A DNA stretch of 64,000 nt from Armatimonas rosea (GTDB lineage: Bacteria; Armatimonadota; Armatimonadia; Armatimonadales; Armatimonadaceae). The DNA lies in the NCBI RefSeq assembly GCF_014202505.1, contig NZ_JACHGW010000001.1, forward strand, positions 186,001-250,000, in the 5' to 3' direction. The position numbers were made by a program, and so were the translations under genes. Below, one piece after another: positions 20,806 to 45,359 of the stretch. The notes below the pieces were generated by a model. It made no database searches. It was not told the DNA's origin and saw only the letters and a program-made list of their open reading frames with translations. How positions within the stretch are numbered: the stretch's first letter is position 1; each line of letters opens with the position of its first letter.

Positions 20806-22428
20806 ATGCGTACTTTTCTAGTTGCTCTTGTCGCACTGTGGGGAGCAGCGTTGCCCAGCTTTGCGCAAGGGGGAATGATGGGAGGTGGCTTTGGCGGCGT
20901 CAGTGGGCGCCCCCTAGATACGGATCTGACCACCGCCACCAGCATTCTCACACCGGGCCAGCAGAGCGAGTGGGCGTTCACGATGAAAGAGGGGGAGACG
21001 ATTATCGCAGCGGCGACCACCACCAACTTCGACCCGGCGATCCAGATCGTGGACAAAGAGGGCAAGGTGCTGGGCGAAAACGACGATGTCCGGCTGGGCG
21101 TACAAGATGCGCTCTTGGTCTACCGGTTTGCCAAAGCGGGCTCGTATAAGCTGCTCGTGAAGGCCTTTAAGGGCGCGGGCGGTGGGCAGTTTAAGCTCAC
21201 TCTTCGTCGGTTTGTCGCGACAGACATTAAAGTCGGGGCGCGGACGACGAGTCCGCCGGGGGGCAAATCGGTGCAGTTCTACCGGTTCTCCGCCGAAGCG
21301 GGGCAGACACTTCTGATCCGCAATGCCCCGGAGCTCTCCGTGTTCTCCCCGACCGGCGAGAGCGTTGCCCTCGGTAGCTCTCTGCAGGAGCAAGTCGCAC
21401 GCACCCTTGCCTCGTTTCGCACCCCAGCCAAGGGCGACTACTACCTGCGCGCGGTCTCGACACGGCCCTATGCCTTTACGGTCGCCGCCGCACGGGTCGC
21501 GCCCCTCACGCTAGGGCAGGCCCCCGTGGCGCGTAAGCTGGGAGCAGGTGGGGTTGATATCTGGACCTTTCAAGGGACGGAGGGCGACTTTATCCGACTC
21601 CATGCCAAGGCAGAGGGCACCATGATCTATGCCCAGCTCGCGGCCATTCCGACACCCGACAGTGACGACACAGATACGCGGGAGGCGATTGCGCTTTTTG
21701 AGGTGGGCGAAAAGACCGAGGGCGAGCTCGTGGCACTCCTGCGTAAGACGGGCACCTATGAGCTGACTCTGGCACAGCCGCTCGGGCTGGAGACGGACTA
21801 CACACTCACCACCACTAAGACCGTGCGTGGCTGGGAGCAAAAAGCGCCGCTAAAAGAGACACTTGCTCTCGGGGGAACGGACTACTACGCCATCGACGGC
21901 AAGGCGGGCGAGCTCTTGCGGCTGGAGGGGCTCTCGGAGCAGTTTGATATCGAGCTGGAGCTCTATAACCTGCGTGGAGAGAAGCTCACGAGCAACGACG
22001 ACGGCGGCAAGGGACGCAATGCTCTCCTGACAGCCTTACTCAGCCAGACAGGCAAGTATCTGCTCCGGGTGAACTGTGTTGGGAATGGGGGCAGTGGGGC
22101 CTACCAGCTCCAGCGTGCCCCCGATCCCGTGCGCCCGCTCAAGCTTGGAGAGCGCGGCATCGGTACACTCAGTGCGGAAGGAACGGAGATCTGGTCGTTC
22201 ACCGGAAAACCAAGTCAGGCTCTCATACTAAGTGTCCGCTTGCCTGACTTCGATACCTCCGTGCGCATCTTCGGCCCCGATGGAATTGAGCTGGCCGCTC
22301 GGGATCAGGGCGACTCGACCAGCACGCTCTTTGGGCTCACCTTCCCGCTGGAGGGCACCTACACCATCTGGGTGTCGAGCAAGTCTGGGGCGGGCAAGTA
22401 CACCCTGCGCTTGATCGAGGCAGACTGA
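20806..22428 (+). CDS. Secreted protein with PPC-like repeats
   Basis: A 540-aa exported protein. The start is set at the ATG at 20806 because ACGGAGGAAG sits just upstream and the product begins with a signal peptide (RTFLVALVALWGAALPSFA). After a Gly/Met-rich linker come several bacterial pre-peptidase C-terminal (PPC)-like beta sandwiches. Their cores are QSEWAFTMKEGETIIAAATT, TDYYAIDGKAGELLRLEGLS and TEIWSFTGKPSQALILSVRL, with the DPAIQIVDKEGKVLGENDD loop characteristic of PPC. There is no protease domain. It is probably a cell-surface or matrix-binding protein. It converges on the M48-like gene with 3 bases between. Confidence 0.8.
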   Translation: MRTFLVALVALWGAALPSFAQGGMMGGGFGGVSGRPLDTDLTTATSILTPGQQSEWAFTMKEGETIIAAATTTNFDPAIQIVDKEGKVLGENDDVRLGVQDALLVYRFAKAGSYKLLVKAFKGAGGGQFKLTLRRFVATDIKVGARTTSPPGGKSVQFYRFSAEAGQTLLIRNAPELSVFSPTGESVALGSSLQEQVARTLASFRTPAKGDYYLRAVSTRPYAFTVAAARVAPLTLGQAPVARKLGAGGVDIWTFQGTEGDFIRLHAKAEGTMIYAQLAAIPTPDSDDTDTREAIALFEVGEKTEGELVALLRKTGTYELTLAQPLGLETDYTLTTTKTVRGWEQKAPLKETLALGGTDYYAIDGKAGELLRLEGLSEQFDIELELYNLRGEKLTSNDDGGKGRNALLTALLSQTGKYLLRVNCVGNGGSGAYQLQRAPDPVRPLKLGERGIGTLSAEGTEIWSFTGKPSQALILSVRLPDFDTSVRIFGPDGIELAARDQGDSTSTLFGLTFPLEGTYTIWVSSKSGAGKYTLRLIEAD

Positions 22429-31414: not shown

Positions 31415-32407
31415 ATGAATAAATATGATCTTAAGCGAGTGAGGAATGTATTTAATAATTATAATGACATAAAAGCAGAATTGTTTATGAGGATGGGTAA
31501 AGATAGTTCCATTGTTTCTGATTTTACATGGAATATAGATAATGATGATGCTTCTCATACACATATCTTCTTTCCTGAGATGAAAACGATGCAGGAATCT
31601 ATGCCTTGGGTTCAGCATATGTTTTGGTCTATGAAAAAGATTTTTAAGACAACACACGATGCAGGTTTAAATATTATGAATAGAGATGCTTGTGTTGTAA
31701 TTAGGATTGAATACATGGAAAAATCCTATTTTGTAACATTTGATTTCTCTGATTATATGGAAAATATTAATAATGAAGCCCTGGATTGTTCAATATGTTA
31801 TTTTAAAATGCAGTTTAATCGGGATGGTTACTTAGATAAAAGAATAGTGCCGGGTGGTTATACGAATAATTCCCCGCATGTGTATAAATATATTCCTTTT
31901 TTGCGTTCTAATATTGATAGTATGAACGATAAGCGAGATGTTTATGGTCGATTCGGCATGCGTTATGCTAGTGATATTCGGAAGAAAGCTATTGATATAC
32001 TTAATGTGCAACAGAAATTTTCTTACGAGGTAAGTGCTACGTTAATACGACATAGCGCCTCTTTAATAGAGGCCTCGAACTCTAAGATATGCATTGATTT
32101 ACCCGGTAATGGTGATTTTTGTTTTCGATTAGTCGACTATTTGTCGATAGGAGCTTGTGTCGTTAGTTATCCTCATCGTACAAAAATGCATGAGCCACTG
32201 ATACATGGTAAAAACATTATTTATTGTGAACCTGATTTCTCAAACCTTGTTGATATTTGTCATTATTATTTGAATAATGATTTAGAGCGAAAAAAAATAC
32301 AAAATAATGCCCGTGAATATTTTGATCGTTACCTTCATCGCGATCAAATTTCCCGTTACTATATTAGTAGTGTTTTAGATATAGTCAAAAATAAAGGTGT
32401 TTTGTGA
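31415..32407 (+). CDS. AT-rich glycosyltransferase-like gene
   Basis: A 330-aa protein. The C-terminal third looks like the donor-binding half of a GT-B fold glycosyltransferase: KICIDLPGNGDFCFRLVDYL, then SIGACVVSYPHRTKM, IHGKNIIYCEPDFSNLVDIC and NNAREYFDRYLHRDQISRYY. The N-terminal part is not recognised. A purine-rich ribosome binding site (ggggatggg) precedes the ATG. Codon and base use are strikingly AT-rich compared with every neighbour, and the spacer before it (31303-31414) is AT-rich too. Horizontal acquisition from a low-GC donor is the simplest reading. A surface-polysaccharide role is plausible. Confidence 0.78.
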   Translation: MNKYDLKRVRNVFNNYNDIKAELFMRMGKDSSIVSDFTWNIDNDDASHTHIFFPEMKTMQESMPWVQHMFWSMKKIFKTTHDAGLNIMNRDACVVIRIEYMEKSYFVTFDFSDYMENINNEALDCSICYFKMQFNRDGYLDKRIVPGGYTNNSPHVYKYIPFLRSNIDSMNDKRDVYGRFGMRYASDIRKKAIDILNVQQKFSYEVSATLIRHSASLIEASNSKICIDLPGNGDFCFRLVDYLSIGACVVSYPHRTKMHEPLIHGKNIIYCEPDFSNLVDICHYYLNNDLERKKIQNNAREYFDRYLHRDQISRYYISSVLDIVKNKGVL

Positions 32408-32462
32408 TTTTATTTTGAATGTGTAATTGGTATCCTGGGGGGAAGTCGCAAGGTCTTTAATT

Positions 32463-32990
32463 ATGAAAACCCGCACCAAGCTCGTCCTTGCCGCCCTGGG
32501 GTTTGTTGCTCTTGTTACTGCTCTTGCGCTCTGGCAGGCGATGCCGCGCGATATTGACCAAGTGGCGCGTCGCATTTCTTTCACGGATGCAGACCGGTCA
32601 GGGATACTGCGCTACGGTGTGTCTGACTATCCCTATAAAGCGAGAGTGCCTGTGGTGCCGGGGCGTGCTGGGGCGAAGGTCGAGGCTTGGAGATCGCACT
32701 CCTACGGCGTAGGGTGGCGCACCTTCGTGGTCTTGCGAGTCAAGAACTATGACCTGCCCGATCCCGATACCTGGTCGGCTCTCTTAGGGGATGCCTGGAA
32801 AAAAGAGCACCGTGAGTTTTGGTTGCTCTCTACCACGGGTGAGAAACCACGCTGTGTGGCGACCGCCCCTGCCTCCAAGGACCCCGCCTGGTCGATTCTC
32901 TCTTGGTCCCCTGAGAGAGACTGGGTTTATCTTCTTAAGTCTGCCTCGTATCACTCCCACGAAGTCTACGCCTTGCCGCTCGGGAAATAA
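32463..32990 (+). CDS. Hypothetical membrane-anchored protein
   Basis: A 175-aa protein with an N-terminal hydrophobic helix (TKLVLAALGFVALVTALALW), then a soluble domain ending in propeller-like text (REFWLLSTTGEKPRCVATAP, LSWSPERDWVYLLKSASYHS). The start is the ATG at 32463, which gives the signal-like N-terminus. The last segments resemble single blades of TolB-like proteins encoded just downstream. GC content returns to the normal level here after the AT-rich glycosyltransferase gene. Confidence 0.62.
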   Translation: MKTRTKLVLAALGFVALVTALALWQAMPRDIDQVARRISFTDADRSGILRYGVSDYPYKARVPVVPGRAGAKVEAWRSHSYGVGWRTFVVLRVKNYDLPDPDTWSALLGDAWKKEHREFWLLSTTGEKPRCVATAPASKDPAWSILSWSPERDWVYLLKSASYHSHEVYALPLGK

Positions 32991-33044
32991 ACGGGTTGCT
33001 GAAATTGGCCGCTTGTCTGCGATACAATCCCTAAGTAAATCTCA
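32987..33044 (+). repeat. 58-bp direct repeat, copy 1, with promoter
   Basis: It matches 36542-36599 at 54 of 58 positions with no gaps. It contains CTGAAA (32999-33004), an 18-base spacer and TACAAT (33023-33028), a plausible sigma-70 promoter. It begins within the stop codon of the preceding gene. Confidence 0.85.
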
Positions 33045-33062
33045 GAGGCCCATTCATGGGTC

Positions 33063-33341
33063 TTGCCACAACGGCGGGCCGCTGCTTATCGCGATACATC
33101 AACTCCTTCGCAAAATGGAAAGTGGCTGCTCTACGAAGAGAGAATTGTCAACGGCGAAGGACGTCATCCTACTAGATGGCTCCTCGTTCGTGGCGATAGC
33201 AGTGAGAAACTCCACTTCCTAAAATCACCTGAGGATGTCACGCTATGCTATCATGTCGCGTCTACAAACCAACGAATCGACGTTGCTAAGTATATTACTG
33301 GCAACAAAGAACGCTATAAAGTACGAATTGAGGAAGTTCTG
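33063..33341 (+). pseudogene. Possible coding remnant ahead of the first TolB-like gene
   Basis: An open frame continuous with the TolB-like gene but lacking a good start. It encodes text such as SQNGKWLLYEERIVNGEG and TRWLLVRGDSSEKLHFLK, which resembles the C-terminal blade of the protein ending at 32990. It may be the decayed end of a former paralogue or the real N-terminus of a longer protein. A signal peptide begins downstream at 33357, which argues for a remnant. Confidence 0.3.
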
Positions 33342-34358
33342 TTGAAAACAAAAAGAATGATATCTCTTGCGGCCACCTGTATTTTGGGTGGAGGACTACT
33401 GGTTCCTGCCATGGCGCAAGTGCCTCCCCCTAGCGATCCTGTCCGAGATATAGGAAGAATGCTCAATGAGTGGAGCATCGCTTTTCTAGGACCCGACCCA
33501 CGCGGCGGATCTCGCAACTACGTTATTCGCTCGATGAGATCCGACGGTACCGCTGCCGTAGATCTTTTTGGAACACGAATTTCCCTAACCAATGAGGGCT
33601 ATACTGGCATAGACTATGCACTCACTCCCGATGGCAATACCGTGGTTTATTCTGCCTTTGATGGCACCTATGTGCAGACGGCTGGTCGTGCACGTACCAG
33701 GATTATGCCCACGCTCATTAGCAACATAAATGTTTCCCCAGATGGACGCAAGCTGGTCTATACACGCACAGCAGCTTCATTCGACATGGATATTTATGTA
33801 TGTAACATTGATGGAACGGGCGAGCGGCAACTAACAAGTGGTGGAACACTATCAGAGACTAAACCTTGCTGGTCTCCCGATGGGCGCAAGATTCTCTATT
33901 CACAGTCAAACCTTTCTTCCGTTTTTACAAAGCTCATGATTATGGAGGCCGACGGGAGCGGGAAACATGCGATTACGGAGGATAGTTTTACCGTACATGA
34001 TCGGATCAATTTCTCCAGTGGGAAATGGTCTCCAGATGGCTCTAAGATTGTCGCCATTGGCTACACAACAATTGGTACCATGGCCAGTTACCAAATCTAT
34101 ACCCTGAACGCTGACGGAACATCGCCTCGACAGCTAACCACTGAGGCACTCCTTCACGCGAACCCATGCTGGTCCCCCGATGGGAGAAAGATCCTGTATG
34201 TGAAACAAATGGGAGGCGCTAGTACAGCGAAAACCGATATCTTTCTCATGGATGCGGACGGAACCCACCAGATCAATCTGACCAACACCCCCAGCATCTC
34301 CGAAGAATCCCCTAAGTGGAAAGCACCGATTGTTCCGCTAGGACGACTGGTACGGTAG
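33342..34358 (+). CDS. TolB-like propeller protein, paralogue 1
   Basis: A 338-aa exported beta-propeller. The start is TTG at 33342, with GAGGAAG upstream; an ATG five codons later is an alternative. The signal peptide ends GGGLLVPAMAQ. The WD40/PD40-type blades carry the repeated S-P-D-G-R-K core: VSPDGRKLVYTRT, WSPDGRKILYSQS, WSPDGSKIVAIGY and WSPDGRKILYVKQ. Each is paired with NADGTxxRQLT-like loops. TolB-like propellers bind partner proteins or peptides at the envelope; no partner is encoded nearby. It is the first of three tandem paralogues. Confidence 0.85.
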   Translation: MKTKRMISLAATCILGGGLLVPAMAQVPPPSDPVRDIGRMLNEWSIAFLGPDPRGGSRNYVIRSMRSDGTAAVDLFGTRISLTNEGYTGIDYALTPDGNTVVYSAFDGTYVQTAGRARTRIMPTLISNINVSPDGRKLVYTRTAASFDMDIYVCNIDGTGERQLTSGGTLSETKPCWSPDGRKILYSQSNLSSVFTKLMIMEADGSGKHAITEDSFTVHDRINFSSGKWSPDGSKIVAIGYTTIGTMASYQIYTLNADGTSPRQLTTEALLHANPCWSPDGRKILYVKQMGGASTAKTDIFLMDADGTHQINLTNTPSISEESPKWKAPIVPLGRLVR

Positions 34359-34383
34359 GAAAACCGTTCGAGAGGAAATACAA

Positions 34384-35367
34384 ATGAAACGTTTTGCAGT
34401 CAATATAACTCTAGCCTTCTCCCTACTCGCAGGGGGCTTGCTTCTTCAGGCCAAGGCACATCAGAAAGGCATTGTTAGGCGTGACCCTCTTCCCTATTCG
34501 GAAGATTGGCGACTAGCCTTTCGAACCCCCGATCCGCGTGGAGGGCCGCCGTTTAATCATACACTGCGCAGTGTAAAACCAGATGGAACGGAAAATGATT
34601 TTCTTTGGGGGATGCGTGCCCCACTCAGTACAAGCAATACCATCAGCTTCACCTTCACCCCGAATGGGCAGACATTTATTTACTCGATCAGCGAGGGAAC
34701 TTATACACAGGAGCGTGGAAGAGAACCCCGTAGGATCATGGGCACGGTGGATCGCCTCAGTGTCTCGCCCGATGGCCGAAAGCTTCTCTACACGAAAGAT
34801 GTTGGTAGAGCGGGTGGGATCGATATCTTCACGTCTGACTTGGATGGGACAGGGGAGGTGCGTGTTACCAATGATCCCAAAAATGATGTCAATCCTTCCT
34901 GGTCCCCCGATGGGAAAAAGATTATCTTTACCAGTGATCCCCTTGGCTGGCATGGTCTAGTCGTTATTAATGCAGATGGGAGTGGGCGACGTAGGTTGAC
35001 GGAAGATGTTGCCGTGCCCCGGATGCGCTACGACGGCGCGGTATGGTCCCCTGATGGAAGACGAATTGCATTTGTGGGAACGGCACTGGATCTTCCCCCC
35101 GAGGCTCGCCCCCATGCGGAACAAATCTATGTCATGAATGTGGATGGAACAGGGCAGATCAAGCTGACAAGTGGGGATTTTCTATACAACTCTCTCCGCT
35201 GGTCGCCCAATGGGGCACAGCTCTCTTTTTGCCGTCGTAACTACACACCTTCCACGTCGTATGATGATATCTTTGTGATGGAATCCGATGGGAGACGTCT
35301 GACGAACCTGACGAATACCTCGGATATCTCCGAAACAAGGGCTTGTTGGTTTCTTACGAGACGGTAG
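34384..35367 (+). CDS. TolB-like propeller protein, paralogue 2
   Basis: A 327-aa paralogue of the preceding gene. The signal peptide is ITLAFSLLAGGLLLQAKA. The same DPRGG and IRSxxxDGT-type opening is followed by blades VSPDGRKLLYTKD, WSPDGKKIIFTSD and WSPDGRRIAFVGT. The C-terminus ends SDISETRACWFLTRR, equivalent to SISEESPKWK in paralogue 1. It begins 25 bases after the first paralogue with a GAGAGGAAA ribosome binding site. Confidence 0.85.
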   Translation: MKRFAVNITLAFSLLAGGLLLQAKAHQKGIVRRDPLPYSEDWRLAFRTPDPRGGPPFNHTLRSVKPDGTENDFLWGMRAPLSTSNTISFTFTPNGQTFIYSISEGTYTQERGREPRRIMGTVDRLSVSPDGRKLLYTKDVGRAGGIDIFTSDLDGTGEVRVTNDPKNDVNPSWSPDGKKIIFTSDPLGWHGLVVINADGSGRRRLTEDVAVPRMRYDGAVWSPDGRRIAFVGTALDLPPEARPHAEQIYVMNVDGTGQIKLTSGDFLYNSLRWSPNGAQLSFCRRNYTPSTSYDDIFVMESDGRRLTNLTNTSDISETRACWFLTRR

Positions 35368-35556
35368 CATTGGGGATTGTGCTTGCGACTCCCGGCAACG
35401 CCAATCGTGTTGTGCGGGAAGACAGTTCCAGCACGCTCTACAGCCCCGATCTGTTTGGTGGAAAGCTCCCCCCACAGACACGGTCGGGGCAGACGAGAAA
35501 GGGAGCCCGCACATTTCTGGTTCTTGGTGCCACTGTCAGGGCTACATCTTTAAGCG

Positions 35557-36507
35557 ATGAAAAAACACTATCTATTTACTGTCATCACCCTCCTTGGAGG
35601 AGCCTTGCTTTTCCAAGCCAAGGCCCGAACACCGCAAATCGGACTACCGATCTCCGAGGCACCCCGTATCGCTTATGTGATGAGAGTGAGCTCGGGCATA
35701 AACTCGATTCGCTCGATCAAACAGGACGGTACCGACGATCAGGATCTATGGGGAACCCCTACACCCATTGGAACTTTCCGAAGTCTGGCTTTTACTCCTG
35801 ATGGACAGACGATGATCTACTCAAACACGGAAGGGATCTATTCTCAGGAGCGTGGACGCCCCGCCAAAAGAATCCTAACGACCCCCGCAGGGAGTTTGCA
35901 TGTCTCCCCCGACGATCGGAAACTTGTCTATACTATTGTCGCAACAACACCTAGACCCCACAGTGAGATATTCACATCTAGCTTGGATGGGAGAGTTGTC
36001 CAGCGTCTAACCACTGATGACGAGGAGAATGTAGCCTCGCCTAGCTGGTCGCCGAGAAGTGACAAGATCATTTACTCCAGTGGTGGTGGGCTTCAGCTTA
36101 AGGTGATGAATGCAGATGGCAGTGGAAAGTCCGTTTTGCCGATAGTACCACGCTCGCCTAGTGAAGCAATCCCCGGACTGTCCGTTCCTCAGTGGTCGCC
36201 CAACGGAAAAGCGATTGTTGCAATAGGGAATCACGAGAACTCGGTGACTCACCTTTACATCATGAATGCGGATGGGACAGGGTTTCACCCCATCACGGTG
36301 GAGCCACTCCGTCGTGGGTTTGTCCGCTGGTCACCCGACGGTACTAAGCTTCTCTTTGCAGGACGCAGGGCCACTCTCGACGAGGTACCGTGGGACATCT
36401 TTACGATAAATTCCAATGGAACAGGGCCTGTCAACGTAACCCACACAACCACTGCCTCGGAAATACACCCCCAGTGGTTGGTGCCACGGCCACCGAAAAC
36501 ACCCTAA
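35557..36507 (+). CDS. TolB-like propeller protein, paralogue 3
   Basis: A 316-aa paralogue with signal peptide FTVITLLGGALLFQAKA and blades VSPDDRKLVYTIV, WSPRSDKIIYSSG, WSPNGKAIVAIGN and WSPDGTKLLFAGR. It ends with the shared ASEIHPQW motif. It is separated from paralogue 2 by 189 bases of unassigned sequence, which may hold a remnant. Moderate GC in this trio contrasts with the GC-rich genes on both sides. Confidence 0.85.
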   Translation: MKKHYLFTVITLLGGALLFQAKARTPQIGLPISEAPRIAYVMRVSSGINSIRSIKQDGTDDQDLWGTPTPIGTFRSLAFTPDGQTMIYSNTEGIYSQERGRPAKRILTTPAGSLHVSPDDRKLVYTIVATTPRPHSEIFTSSLDGRVVQRLTTDDEENVASPSWSPRSDKIIYSSGGGLQLKVMNADGSGKSVLPIVPRSPSEAIPGLSVPQWSPNGKAIVAIGNHENSVTHLYIMNADGTGFHPITVEPLRRGFVRWSPDGTKLLFAGRRATLDEVPWDIFTINSNGTGPVNVTHTTTASEIHPQWLVPRPPKTP

Positions 36508-36541
36508 AAGCACAGGAGGAGGAATCTTCCTCTGAGTTTAT

Positions 36542-36599
36542 ATAAACCGGTTGCTGAAATTGGCCGCTTGTCTGCGATACAATCCTTGCGTAAATCTCA
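36542..36599 (+). repeat. 58-bp direct repeat, copy 2, with promoter
   Basis: Second copy of the repeat at 32987-33044, offset by 3555 bases, with its TACAAT at 36578-36583. It presumably drives the Gfo/Idh-family gene that starts 40 bases downstream behind a GGAAAGGG ribosome binding site. Confidence 0.85.
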
Positions 36600-36638
36600 C
36601 GACGCCTCGGTACGGGGCGGACACGGAAAGGGTTTTGT

Positions 36639-37784
36639 ATGCAGATCGGGGTAATCATGAACGGCGTCACCGGGCGCATGGGGACAAATCAGCACCTCTT
36701 GCGCTCCATCGTGGCGATCCGCGACCAGGGCGGTGTCAAGATCGGCGATGGCGAGAGCATTGTCCCCGATCCCATCCTCGTGGGCCGCAACGAAAAGAAG
36801 CTCGCGGAGCTGGCGGCGCGCGCGGGCGGCGTGAAGTACACCACCGATCTTGAGGGCGTCCTCGCGGATCCCGCCTACCCGATCTACTTCGATGCCCAGC
36901 TCACCCAGCTACGCGCTCCCGCCGTCCTCAAGGCGATCGCCGCGGGCAAGCACATCTACTGCGAGAAGCCGTCGGGGACTACCACCGAGGAGGCCTATGC
37001 GCTCTACGAGGCGGCCAAGAAGGCGGGGGTCAAGCAGGGAGTCGTGCAGGACAAGCTCTTTCTGCCAGGGCTGGTGAAGCTGAAGAACCTTATCGACTCG
37101 GGCTTCTTTGGCGAGATTCTCTCCGTACGCGGCGAGTTTGGCTACTGGGTCTACACCGGCCACGATGCCATTCCGGTCCAGCGCCCCAGCTGGAACTACC
37201 GTAAAGAGGACGGCGGCGGGATTATCGTGGACATGCTCTGCCACTGGCGCTATGTCCTGGACAACCTCTTTGGCGAGGTGAAGGGAGTCTCGTGCCTGGG
37301 CGCGACCCATGTGAAGGAGCGCATCGACGAGAGCGGGAAGCCCTATGTCTGCACCGCCGACGACTCCGCCTACGCCACGTTTGAGCTGGAGAACGGTGTG
37401 GTCGCGCAGTTCAACTCTAGCTGGACCGTGCGGGTGCGCCGCGACGATCTCCTGACACTCCAGGTAGACGGCACCAAGGGCAGCGCGGTGGCGGGGCTCC
37501 GTGGCTGCACGATCCAGCCCTACGGCGCGACCCCGCGTCCGGTCTGGAACCCCGATATCGACTCCCCGATTGATTTCTACGAGAACTGGATGACCGTTCC
37601 GACCAACCAGATCCTGGACAATGGGTTCAAGGTGCAGTGGGAGATGTTCTTGAAGCATGTCGTGCTAGACACCCCCTGGCAGTACGACCTGCGTGAGGGT
37701 GCCAAGGGAGTCCAGCTCGCCGAGGCGGGCCTAAAGTCTTGGGAAGAGCGCCGCTGGGTGGCGCTGGACCCGCTCGCCCCGTGA
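36639..37784 (+). CDS. Gfo/Idh/MocA-family oxidoreductase
   Basis: A 381-aa NAD(P)-dependent sugar or cyclitol dehydrogenase. The Rossmann domain starts QIGVIMNGVTGRMGTN. The family Lys motif is in GKHIYCEKPSGTTTEEAY. The C-terminal sheet domain carries GGGIIVDMLCHWRYVLDNLF. It overlaps the 2-hydroxyacid dehydrogenase start (GTGA). With the GH95 gene that follows, it suggests catabolism of a released sugar, possibly fucose- or galactose-related. The substrate is not readable. Confidence 0.92.
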   Translation: MQIGVIMNGVTGRMGTNQHLLRSIVAIRDQGGVKIGDGESIVPDPILVGRNEKKLAELAARAGGVKYTTDLEGVLADPAYPIYFDAQLTQLRAPAVLKAIAAGKHIYCEKPSGTTTEEAYALYEAAKKAGVKQGVVQDKLFLPGLVKLKNLIDSGFFGEILSVRGEFGYWVYTGHDAIPVQRPSWNYRKEDGGGIIVDMLCHWRYVLDNLFGEVKGVSCLGATHVKERIDESGKPYVCTADDSAYATFELENGVVAQFNSSWTVRVRRDDLLTLQVDGTKGSAVAGLRGCTIQPYGATPRPVWNPDIDSPIDFYENWMTVPTNQILDNGFKVQWEMFLKHVVLDTPWQYDLREGAKGVQLAEAGLKSWEERRWVALDPLAP

Positions 37785-38770
37785 CCTCAGCCGCCTTTCT
37801 CGCCCCCCCCGAAACGATCCGCCGCCTCTTCGATGCCCCGCGTGTCGAGAGGCTGGCGCAGCTTGTGGCCCTCCGCCCCGAGATTATCGCCCCCACGCAG
37901 CTCGACTCGGCTCTCCCTGAGCTGGGCGAGCTGGAGGTGATTGTCTCCACCTGGGGCATGCCTCGCCTCACCGACGCCCAGCTCGATGCACTCCCGCGGC
38001 TCGCGGCGGTGTTCTATGCCGCGGGCTCGGTGCAGGGCTTTGCACGGCCCCTCCTAGAGCGGGGGATCACGGTGGTGAGCGCCTGGCAGGCAAACGCGGT
38101 GCCCGTGGCGGAGTTCACCCTGGCGCAGGTCTTACTGGGCACCAAGGGGTACTTTCGCAATAGCCTGGAGCTCCATGCCACCAGAAGCGCCGCCAGCGCC
38201 TTTCGTGGGCCGGGGAGCTACGGCGAGGAGGTGGCACTCCTCGGGGCGGGGGCGATTGGGCGGCGCGTGATCGCGCTCCTGAAGCCGTTTTCGGTGAAGG
38301 TCTTGGTTTTTGATCCGTTTTTAAGCAAGGAAGAGGCAGTGGCATTGGGTGTGGAAAAAGTGGGGCTCGACGAGGCATTTGCACGGGGTTTTGTGGTCTC
38401 GAACCACCTGGCAAACAACGCGCAGACCGTCGGGATGCTGACCGGAGCGCACTTTGCGCAGCTCCGCCCCGGAGCGGTCTTTATCAACACAGGGCGCGGG
38501 CTGACGGTGAAAGAGGACGAGCTCGCGGAGGTCTTTCGCGCTCGGCCGGACCTCACGGCGCTCCTGGACGTGGTCTACCCTGAGCCCTGTCCGCCGACAT
38601 CGCCGCTCTGGGAGCTGCCCAATGTGCGGCTTAGTAGCCATATCGCGGGCTCCATCCACGACGAGACCCGGCGGATGGCGGACTGGTGCCTCGACGAGCT
38701 AGAGCGCTGGCAGGCGGGCGTGCCCCTGCGCTTTGCCGTGAGCCTGGAGATGCTGGAGACAATGGCGTGA
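37781..38770 (+). CDS. D-isomer-specific 2-hydroxyacid dehydrogenase family
   Basis: A 329-aa NAD-dependent dehydrogenase. The nucleotide-binding GxGxxG is in VALLGAGAIGRRVIALLKPF. The expected catalytic Arg (FINTGRGLTVKEDEL), Glu (DVVYPEPCPPTSPLW) and His (LSSHIAGSIHDETRR) are all present. The start is GTG at 37781, which forms GTGA with the upstream stop. Its own stop overlaps the GH95 gene by GTGA. It probably reduces or oxidises an acidic sugar product in the same pathway. Confidence 0.9.
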   Translation: MTSAAFLAPPETIRRLFDAPRVERLAQLVALRPEIIAPTQLDSALPELGELEVIVSTWGMPRLTDAQLDALPRLAAVFYAAGSVQGFARPLLERGITVVSAWQANAVPVAEFTLAQVLLGTKGYFRNSLELHATRSAASAFRGPGSYGEEVALLGAGAIGRRVIALLKPFSVKVLVFDPFLSKEEAVALGVEKVGLDEAFARGFVVSNHLANNAQTVGMLTGAHFAQLRPGAVFINTGRGLTVKEDELAEVFRARPDLTALLDVVYPEPCPPTSPLWELPNVRLSSHIAGSIHDETRRMADWCLDELERWQAGVPLRFAVSLEMLETMA

Positions 38771-40974
38771 GACTCTGGTACGACAAGCCCGCACAAGAGT
38801 GGCTCGAAGCGCTTCCGATTGGCAATGGGACGATCGGGGCGATGGTCTTTGGCGGGGTCAATAGCGAGCGCTTGGCCCTCAACCACGGGGATCTCTGGGG
38901 CGGGGGGCCGCACAACGATGCCAACCCCGATGCGCTGGAGGCCCTCCCCGAGATTCGCCAGCTGGTCTTTTCCGGCGAGTACGCGGCGGCGCAGGCACTG
39001 GTCAATGCCCGCTTCATGGGCCAGCCGCTCCGTCAGCGCCCCTACCAGGCCTTGGGCAACCTGCTGCTGACTGTTGTGCCACCGGCCCAGGGCAGCGAGA
39101 TCGAGAGCTACGAGCGGGAGCTGGACCTCGACGATGCCATCGTCCGGGTGCGCTACCGCCAGGGAGGCGTGGACTACACGCGGGAGGTGCTCGCCAGCCA
39201 GCCCGATGGTGTGATCGCCTTCCGCCTCACCGCCAGCGCCCCGATGCACCTGCGCCTCTCGATGAGCTGCCCGCACCTGGCCCACGAGACCCGCGCGTCG
39301 GGCAGGACCCTGCTACTGGCGGGGATGAGCGATACGGTCACGTTTGAGGCCCGGGCACAGGTGCAGCTCGAGGGCAATGGAGTCATCACCGCGGAAGACG
39401 GCCAGCTGATTGTCCGGGGGCGCTCCGTGGTGATCTTGCTCTCCATGGCGACCAGCTATGTCAACTGGCACGATACCTCCGACGATCCCGCGACCTGGAA
39501 CGCCAAGGCTCTCTCTCGGGCGATGAAGAAGTCCTGGGAGCGGCTGCGGCTGGCGCACCTGGCGGTCTACCAGAAGCTCTACTCGCGCGTCTCCTTAGAG
39601 CTGGGACCGGAGCCGGCGCTCCCCACCAGTGTGCGTGTCCAGAGCTTCGCGCAGGGCAACGACCCGGCGCTGGCGGCGCTACACTTCCAGTACGGGCGCT
39701 ACCTGCTCATCTCCTGCTCCTACCCCGGCGGCCCACCCGCGACCCTGCAAGGGCTCTGGAACGAGTCGCTGACACCGCCGTGGGACAGCAAGTACACGGT
39801 CAATATCAACACGGAGATGAACTACTGGCCCGCCGCGCCCGCCAACCTGCTGGAGTGCTACGACCCGCTCTTTCGGATGATCGAGGAGGTGGCGGAGTCC
39901 GGGCGACGGACGGCGCGCACCCAGTACGGGGCGGGGGGCTGGGTCTGTCACCACAACACCGATGGCTGGCGGGGGACCGCGCCCGTGGACGGGGCGTTCT
40001 GGGGGATGTGGCCCTGCGGGGGCGCGTGGCTGTGCAAGAGCTTCTGGGACCACTACGAGTTCACCCGCGATAAGAAGACCCTGGCTGTCCACTACCCGAC
40101 CATGCGTGGCGCGGCAGAGTTCTTCCTGGATGCGCTGGTGACTGATCCCAAGACCGGTTGGCTGGTCACCTGCCCCAGTGTCTCCCCCGAGAACGCCCAC
40201 CACCCCGGCGTGAGTGTCTGTGCGGGGCCGGCGATGGACAGCCAGATTATCGGGGACCTCTTTGAGAGCGTGGCCCGTGCTGCGGAGACTCTCAAGCGGG
40301 ATCCGGAGTTTGTGGTGAAAGTGCGGACAGCACGCGCCAAGCTCCCTCCTCTCCAGATCGGGAAGGCGGGACAGCTGCAGGAGTGGCTCGACGACTGGGA
40401 CCTGGAGGCACCGGAGCAGGACCACCGGCATGTCTCGCACCTCTACGCCCTCTTTCCGAGCAACCAGATCACCCGTGAGAGCGCCCTGCTCATGGGGGCG
40501 GCCCGCAAGTCGCTGGAGCGGCGCGGGGACATGGCGACCGGCTGGAGCCTGGCCTGGAAGCTCAACCTCTGGGCGCGGCTGGGCGAGGGCGAGCGGGCAC
40601 ACGCGCTCTTGGCAGGCCTGCTCACCCCCGAGCGCACCGCCCCCAATCTCTTCGACCTGCACCCGCCGTTCCAGATCGACGGCAACTTCGGGGCGGTGAG
40701 CGGGATCTGCGAGATGCTCCTCCAGAGCCACGCGGGCGAGCTGCACTTGCTTCCCGCACTACCGCCCCAGTGGCCCGAGGGCAGGGTCTCGGGGCTCCGT
40801 GCCCGCGGCGGCTACCTCGTGAGCCTGGCGTGGAGCGGCGGCGTCCTCACCGACGTTGCGATTGTCTCGCAGAACGCAGGCGAGTGCCGCATTCGCGTCG
40901 GCGAGCAGGTGAGCGTCCTCAAGACACGCAAGGGCGGGGTCATCACCCTCGTGGATCTCCAGCCCGAAGAATAG
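38767..40974 (+). CDS. GH95-family glycoside hydrolase (alpha-L-fucosidase type)
   Basis: A 735-aa enzyme. It opens RLWYDKPAQEWLEALPIGNG, the hallmark of GH95 N-terminal domains, and includes NINTEMNYWPAAPANLLE and the late QIDGNFGAVSGICEMLLQSH. GH95 acts on alpha-1,2-fucosides or alpha-L-galactosides by inversion. The GTG at 38767 (GTGA overlap) is chosen over a longer frame whose N-terminus is the dehydrogenase read in another frame. No signal peptide is seen, so it is cytoplasmic. Confidence 0.92.
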   Translation: MRLWYDKPAQEWLEALPIGNGTIGAMVFGGVNSERLALNHGDLWGGGPHNDANPDALEALPEIRQLVFSGEYAAAQALVNARFMGQPLRQRPYQALGNLLLTVVPPAQGSEIESYERELDLDDAIVRVRYRQGGVDYTREVLASQPDGVIAFRLTASAPMHLRLSMSCPHLAHETRASGRTLLLAGMSDTVTFEARAQVQLEGNGVITAEDGQLIVRGRSVVILLSMATSYVNWHDTSDDPATWNAKALSRAMKKSWERLRLAHLAVYQKLYSRVSLELGPEPALPTSVRVQSFAQGNDPALAALHFQYGRYLLISCSYPGGPPATLQGLWNESLTPPWDSKYTVNINTEMNYWPAAPANLLECYDPLFRMIEEVAESGRRTARTQYGAGGWVCHHNTDGWRGTAPVDGAFWGMWPCGGAWLCKSFWDHYEFTRDKKTLAVHYPTMRGAAEFFLDALVTDPKTGWLVTCPSVSPENAHHPGVSVCAGPAMDSQIIGDLFESVARAAETLKRDPEFVVKVRTARAKLPPLQIGKAGQLQEWLDDWDLEAPEQDHRHVSHLYALFPSNQITRESALLMGAARKSLERRGDMATGWSLAWKLNLWARLGEGERAHALLAGLLTPERTAPNLFDLHPPFQIDGNFGAVSGICEMLLQSHAGELHLLPALPPQWPEGRVSGLRARGGYLVSLAWSGGVLTDVAIVSQNAGECRIRVGEQVSVLKTRKGGVITLVDLQPEE

Positions 40975-45172: not shown

Positions 45173-45359
45173 CGCCGGTTGGAAAACCGGCGTCTGCAGT
45201 GGCCTCGTCCCTCGGCCGCAAAGCCCGTGCCGGGCTACAAAATGACGCCCCCCTTCGCGAAGCCGGAGGGGGTGGCCGAGTTCCACGAGGCCGGGGGAGG
45301 TAAGCCCGGCACGGGCTTTGCGGCGGGACGCCACTGTTGACGCCCAATTCTATTGGGCG
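45173..45359. repeat. Hairpin cluster between esterase and nusA
   Basis: Three inverted repeats follow one another. The first is an 8-bp stem at 45173-45192 (CGCCGGTT-GGAA-AACCGGCG). The second has arms of 24-25 bases at 45215-45238 and 45300-45324, nearly perfect, 61 bases apart. The third is an 8-bp stem at 45341-45359. The first unit is almost the same as the hairpin at 57791-57819. No ORF is supported. It is probably a dispersed REP/MITE-like sequence. Confidence 0.65.

Follow-up and report, generated by a model that had tools for sequence, protein, structure and literature searches.

A duplicated promoter region with a putative LacI-type operator on either side of TolB-like genes in Armatimonas rosea

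In the genome of Armatimonas rosea two nearly identical 58-bp sequences enclose three TolB-like genes, and the locus raises the question of whether these sequences are the ends of a mobile cassette or two copies of a control region. The window (the whole analysed stretch of 64,000 nucleotides, positions 186,001 to 250,000 of contig NZ_JACHGW010000001.1 in GCF_014202505.1) was compared with other genomes, among them one further genome of the same genus (G001, the only one in the comparison; G000 is the window's own genome). A sequence-only reading had described the copies as promoter-bearing repeats, 54 of 58 bases identical and 3555 bases apart, around the three genes, and both the coordinates and the identity were confirmed. 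The features of the locus are as follows.

32463..32990, + strand: 175-aa gene, related to a 340-aa paralogue in the same genome (G000:C2:167057-168079) but shortened internally
32987..33044, + strand: copy 1 of the repeat, promoter region with altered putative operator TAAACGGGTTGC at 32988-32999; CTGAAA at 32999-33004, TACAAT at 33023-33028
33046..33083, + strand: copy of a dispersed element with two hairpins, the second of which has decayed here
33237..33356, + strand: leader, homologous to the leader of a paralogous cluster (G000:C1:414k); left edge of the detectable cassette homology
33357..34358, + strand: TolB-like (PD40) gene 1, 333 aa; shares 61% identity with propeller gene 1 of the paralogous cluster (L090 6044-7036)
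34384..35367, + strand: TolB-like (PD40) gene 2, 327 aa
35397..35531, + strand: piece of a weakly DUF4352-like gene whose counterpart in the paralogous cluster has 387 aa
35557..36507, + strand: TolB-like (PD40) gene 3, 316 aa; shares 40% identity with propeller gene 2 of the paralogous cluster (L090 8209-9147)
36515..36533, + strand: terminator-like hairpin 3' of TolB-like gene 3
36542..36599, + strand: copy 2 of the repeat, putative Gfo/Idh promoter with intact operator core TAAACCGGTTGC at 36543-36554; CTGAAA at 36554-36559, TACAAT at 36578-36583
36639..37784, + strand: Gfo/Idh/MocA family dehydrogenase, with a 97% identical same-genus orthologue
37739..38770 (limits of the reading frame, true start probably later), + strand: D-isomer specific 2-hydroxyacid dehydrogenase, next to Gfo/Idh in the relative too

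The two copies (32987-33044 and 36542-36599, their starts 3555 bases apart) differ at repeat positions 7, 45, 47 and 48, and their longest identical run is 37 bases; the stop codon of the 32463 gene overlaps the start of copy 1. A 111-base query found only these two places in the whole genome (6,325,924 bases, 19 contigs). The 18-base core of the repeat, allowing up to three mismatches, found both copies and two further three-mismatch matches in the same genome (reversed control, two matches), and the exact 36-base core had no match in a contig collection that may omit the window's own genome. Both copies carry the sigma-70-like arrangement CTGAAA-18-TACAAT, a weak promoter match (9/12). A chance likeness, or one common to housekeeping promoters in general, would fit with the finding that sigma-70-like sites as a class are not enriched across the repeat region (4 found, 3.9 expected), but when 32300-37800 was dinucleotide-shuffled 40 times, ungapped 58-mer matches reached 37/58 at most, and no third copy exists genome-wide. 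The length and uniqueness of the match already refute such an explanation, which is vanishingly improbable. The repeat is genuine and unique, and it looks like an operator-promoter that was duplicated, which is nothing unusual in kind.

Comparison with the same-genus relative points to the gene to which this region belongs. The Gfo/Idh orthologue in G001 is 97% identical at the protein level and is followed by the same 2-hydroxyacid dehydrogenase gene, with DNA synteny spanning 36612-38778 of the window, and upstream of it the 58-bp region occurs once, in a diverged form that aligns to either copy better than all 1000 shuffles. The 58-bp repeat is thus most likely the region from which the Gfo/Idh dehydrogenase gene is controlled, and the earlier description of a promoter-bearing, duplicated repeat is supported as a duplicated control region. 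Copy 2 resembles the version in G001 in the operator and in the Gfo/Idh leader, including CGGACACGGAAAGG before Gfo/Idh, and copy 1 resembles that version downstream of TACAAT and at the start of the adjoining hairpin element, including the AGGCCCATTYATG stretch that follows. Each copy is much more like its twin than like the G001 version, and for this reason the duplication is read as having taken place after the two species split.

The repeat contains a TAAACCGGTTGA-like palindrome that recurs in both genomes, in each of them ahead of rhamnogalacturonan lyase, prepilin-like and Gfo/Idh genes. The pattern ATAAACCGGTTG has exactly four sites in G000 and four in G001 (reversed control, none in either). 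In G000 the genes downstream of these sites are Gfo/Idh (behind copy 2), two DUF1559 genes (C2:170437, prepilin-like, and C3:15159) and one for a family 11 rhamnogalacturonan lyase (C2:641735). The G001 sites lie ahead of Gfo/Idh and of a lyase gene of that type and include a pair at C194 (the G001 lyase gene was named by sequence likeness, the Pfam search having been run on the G000 gene). A second pattern, TMAACCGGTTKA, occurs at three places in each genome (reversed control, one in G000 and none in G001) and adds a place before glucuronate isomerase, in G000 only. At a distance of some 4 kb from the sites on C3 and C194, a LacI-family gene (L136 13065-14126, minus strand) lies beside a pectate lyase gene; it is 86% identical between the two genomes, has TAAACCGGTTTT just upstream in both, and in G000 encodes a helix-turn-helix domain (PF00356) and a ligand domain (PF13377). 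Between divergent genes in both genomes (L136 10114-10169 and L138 1861-1916) there is a double operator whose sites lie 44 bases apart and enclose a -10-like sequence. A relaxed operator scan of the window also gave partial matches at 21119 (two mismatches) and 60985 (one mismatch).

The form and position of the palindrome are those of a LacI-type operator. In copy 2 and at the recurrent sites it is an even palindrome with a central CG (core AACCGGTT; the last operator position in copy 2 is C, not A), and the copy 2 site lies about 90 bp before the Gfo/Idh ATG. According to PMC4052901, LacI-family palindromes were even for 1251 of 1303 regulators, with a consensus central CG for 1173 regulators that is called characteristic of even palindromes; more than 75% of the sites sit 30-140 bp before the start codon, and 72% of the regulators studied are autoregulated. 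Because a central CG is typical of LacI palindromes, autoregulation is common and a site precedes the LacI-family gene itself, we take the palindrome to be its operator, and it is probable that this putative operator is bound by the protein encoded beside pectate lyase. LacI-family matches are many in the two species (10 and 11), so the assignment of the regulator rests on its neighbourhood and on the site before its gene. The same even palindrome with central CG is found in the LacI-family sugar and uronate regulons of the ExuR, KdgR, UxaR and UxuR groups (named in PMC4052901), in which sites likewise precede catabolic genes and the regulator's own gene and the regulator adjoins a target enzyme gene. 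Unlike these named regulons, the present one belongs to an Armatimonadota genus, its sites and regulator were deduced from sequence alone, and it includes a duplicated site with an altered centre. Among titles retrieved for Armatimonas with pectin or Armatimonadetes with LacI, none described such a regulon, although titles alone do not prove that none has been reported.

Of the 11 other genomes in the family, 4 have close orthologues of Gfo/Idh (77-97% identical); with A. rosea itself included, the figure is 5 of 12. At the more distant Gfo/Idh loci of G003, G004 and G006, AACCGGTT, AAACCGGT and CCGGTTGA were absent from both strands over approximately 4.1 kb each. Without the AACCGGTT core at these loci, the site is conserved at the genus level only. 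Recurrence as an ordinary promoter element, which the sequence-only reading had named as evidence against a link to the cassette, applies to the operator palindrome only, the 58-bp sequence itself being confined to its two places in the genome.

The two copies differ at the centre of this palindrome. One of their four differences turns the central operator CG of copy 2 into GG in copy 1 (AACGGGTT), so that copy 1 lacks the AACCGGTT core; this is one mutation and may be of chance origin. The best explanation, which we judge to be probably correct, is a sigma-70-type promoter with the LacI-type operator of a pectin/uronate regulon that has been duplicated, with copy 2 driving Gfo/Idh and copy 1 altered. 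The 58-bp sequence would control an operon of Gfo/Idh and 2-hydroxyacid dehydrogenase, with the operator abutting the -35 region, as part of a small regulon for the breakdown of pectin/rhamnogalacturonan and uronate that is probably run by the LacI-family protein encoded next to pectate lyase. As long as no inducer is present, the regulator is predicted to occupy the palindrome and so keep the promoter shut. The control region would have been duplicated in the window's lineage, with the TolB-like genes now between the copies; Gfo/Idh would still be driven from copy 2, where the operator core is intact, and copy 1, which precedes TolB-like gene 1 by about 310 bases, appears to have lost the central CG of its operator. 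With this loss, the cassette is probably read from copy 1 free of the usual control by pectin, or else this copy is in decay. Protein binding, the direction of regulation and a transcription start at the repeat are all predictions from the DNA. The earlier proposal of a promoter duplicated to serve both units holds as to the duplication, and the changed operator centre makes service by copy 1 doubtful.

The alternative that the 58-bp copies are recombination sites, with the cassette excised between them so that the 32463 gene is joined to Gfo/Idh, draws on several properties of the locus. Direct repeats with 37 consecutive identical bases flank lineage-specific genes of lower GC content (0.51-0.53 compared to 0.61 for the window), and the relative has a single copy. 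Its locus is, however, not what excision would leave. The left neighbour of Gfo/Idh in G001 is an amino-acid-permease-like gene (by reading its sequence) and neither the 32463 gene nor a cassette gene, the two genomes differ greatly in the order of their genes, and the best TolB-like match in G001 has an E-value of only 1.9e-14, which indicates no close relative of the cassette there. With its left flank unrelated, G001 provides a single diverged copy without a close relative of the cassette but no clean empty site.

The structure of the cassette also speaks against excision at the repeats. When TolB-like gene 2 was searched against 21 genomes (A. rosea itself, the same-genus relative and others of the family, order and phylum), the nearest relatives lay in the same genome at C1:414083-417141, in a cluster ordered TolB-like, weakly DUF4352-like, TolB-like. 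The DUF4352-like gene is reduced in the window to 35397-35531 (58% over 45 residues compared to the copy in the cluster), a gene remnant within the cassette. DNA similarity to the cluster extends left to approximately 33237, about 190 bases inward of copy 1, so the detectable cassette does not begin at that copy; between them lie the dispersed hairpin element and approximately 150 bases without assignment. A derivation of 33085-33236 from a 32463-like gene was considered on a weak match (E 0.009 against two sequences; 0.057) and is not claimed. A Pfam scan of six genes in the neighbourhood of the repeat found no recombinase or transposase, the repeat has only its two copies genome-wide, and no bounding inverted repeats were found, the only inverted pair detected being inside Gfo/Idh. 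These results, namely the lack of a recombinase in the six genes and of bounding inverted repeats, the homology edge near 33237, the hairpin element after copy 1, the fragmentary gene and the permease-like neighbour, do not support a modular, excisable insertion, and we regard excision between recombination sites as very unlikely. Deletion by homologous recombination over the 37-58 bp shared by the copies is possible.

Islands bounded by att sites and integron cassettes are integrated elements flanked by direct repeats. The locus resembles them in having direct repeats on both sides of accessory genes, and differs in that no integrase was found, the repeat is the native control region of an operon, and the homology does not end at the repeats. 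To the left of the cassette, the ends of the 32463-32990 protein match residues 1-41 and 239-321 of its 340-aa paralogue. Further left, at 31415-32407, is a 330-aa gene of 32% GC (61% for the window) with a weak likeness to a glycosyl transferase, for which a search for phage relatives gave no match.

The resemblances of copy 1 to the relative may point to a different order of events. In it the control region and the adjoining hairpin element would be the original state, a segment would have entered behind copy 1, and another promoter copy would have come to lie before Gfo/Idh; both copies would still be working, regulated promoters, and the cassette would belong to the same regulon. The second promoter would have been kept by selection because the insertion and the terminator-like hairpin (36515-36533) cut the operon off from its old promoter. 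This history accounts for AGGCCCATTYATG and further bases after TACAAT being common to copy 1 and G001, and CGGACACGGAAAGG before Gfo/Idh to copy 2 and G001. The operator centre of copy 1 is changed, however, and the dispersed element could have inserted independently at the same spot, with one relative only for comparison; we consider this history unlikely.

The hairpin element itself is approximately 49 nt long with two hairpins (33046-33094 in the window; loci L064-L089), with 16 matches in G000 and 10 in G001. In an alignment of 24 distinct sequences of the 26 listed (two identical to a third were omitted), 5 of 15 pairs were changed on both sides and none of 500 shuffles reached the covariation score; L083 (24/38 identical) was excluded from the scan. 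Five loci holding the element gave no Rfam match to it (a sub-threshold miRNA match elsewhere in L066 was discarded), and an exact scan of the contig collection returned five stretches, all from one Armatimonadetes MAG. REP/BIME-like intergenic palindromic repeats are short and dispersed, with two hairpins and compensatory changes. The element resembles them in these respects and has no Rfam match. At L072 ~990-1560 (G000:C5:236779-237307) a small AT-rich gene is bracketed by two copies of the element in inverted orientation. Another dispersed repeat, approximately 125 bases long (window 45173-45359, L033 13709-13835), occurs at many places in the same genome in both orientations.

Under the preferred explanation, a duplicated LacI-controlled promoter, an Armatimonadota genus is proposed to control pectin breakdown through a LacI-type operator for which both the regulator and the target genes are suggested, and what had appeared to be a mobile cassette becomes a readable piece of regulation. 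The copies form a natural operator pair that differs in a central base and is directly testable. A more specific history, in which a LacI-controlled pectin promoter was copied around TolB-like beta-propeller genes and a single change of the central CG freed the new copy from repression, with the old gene keeping its intact operator, is tentative and rather unlikely; if true, it would represent a natural regulon gaining and then re-tuning genes via promoter copying.
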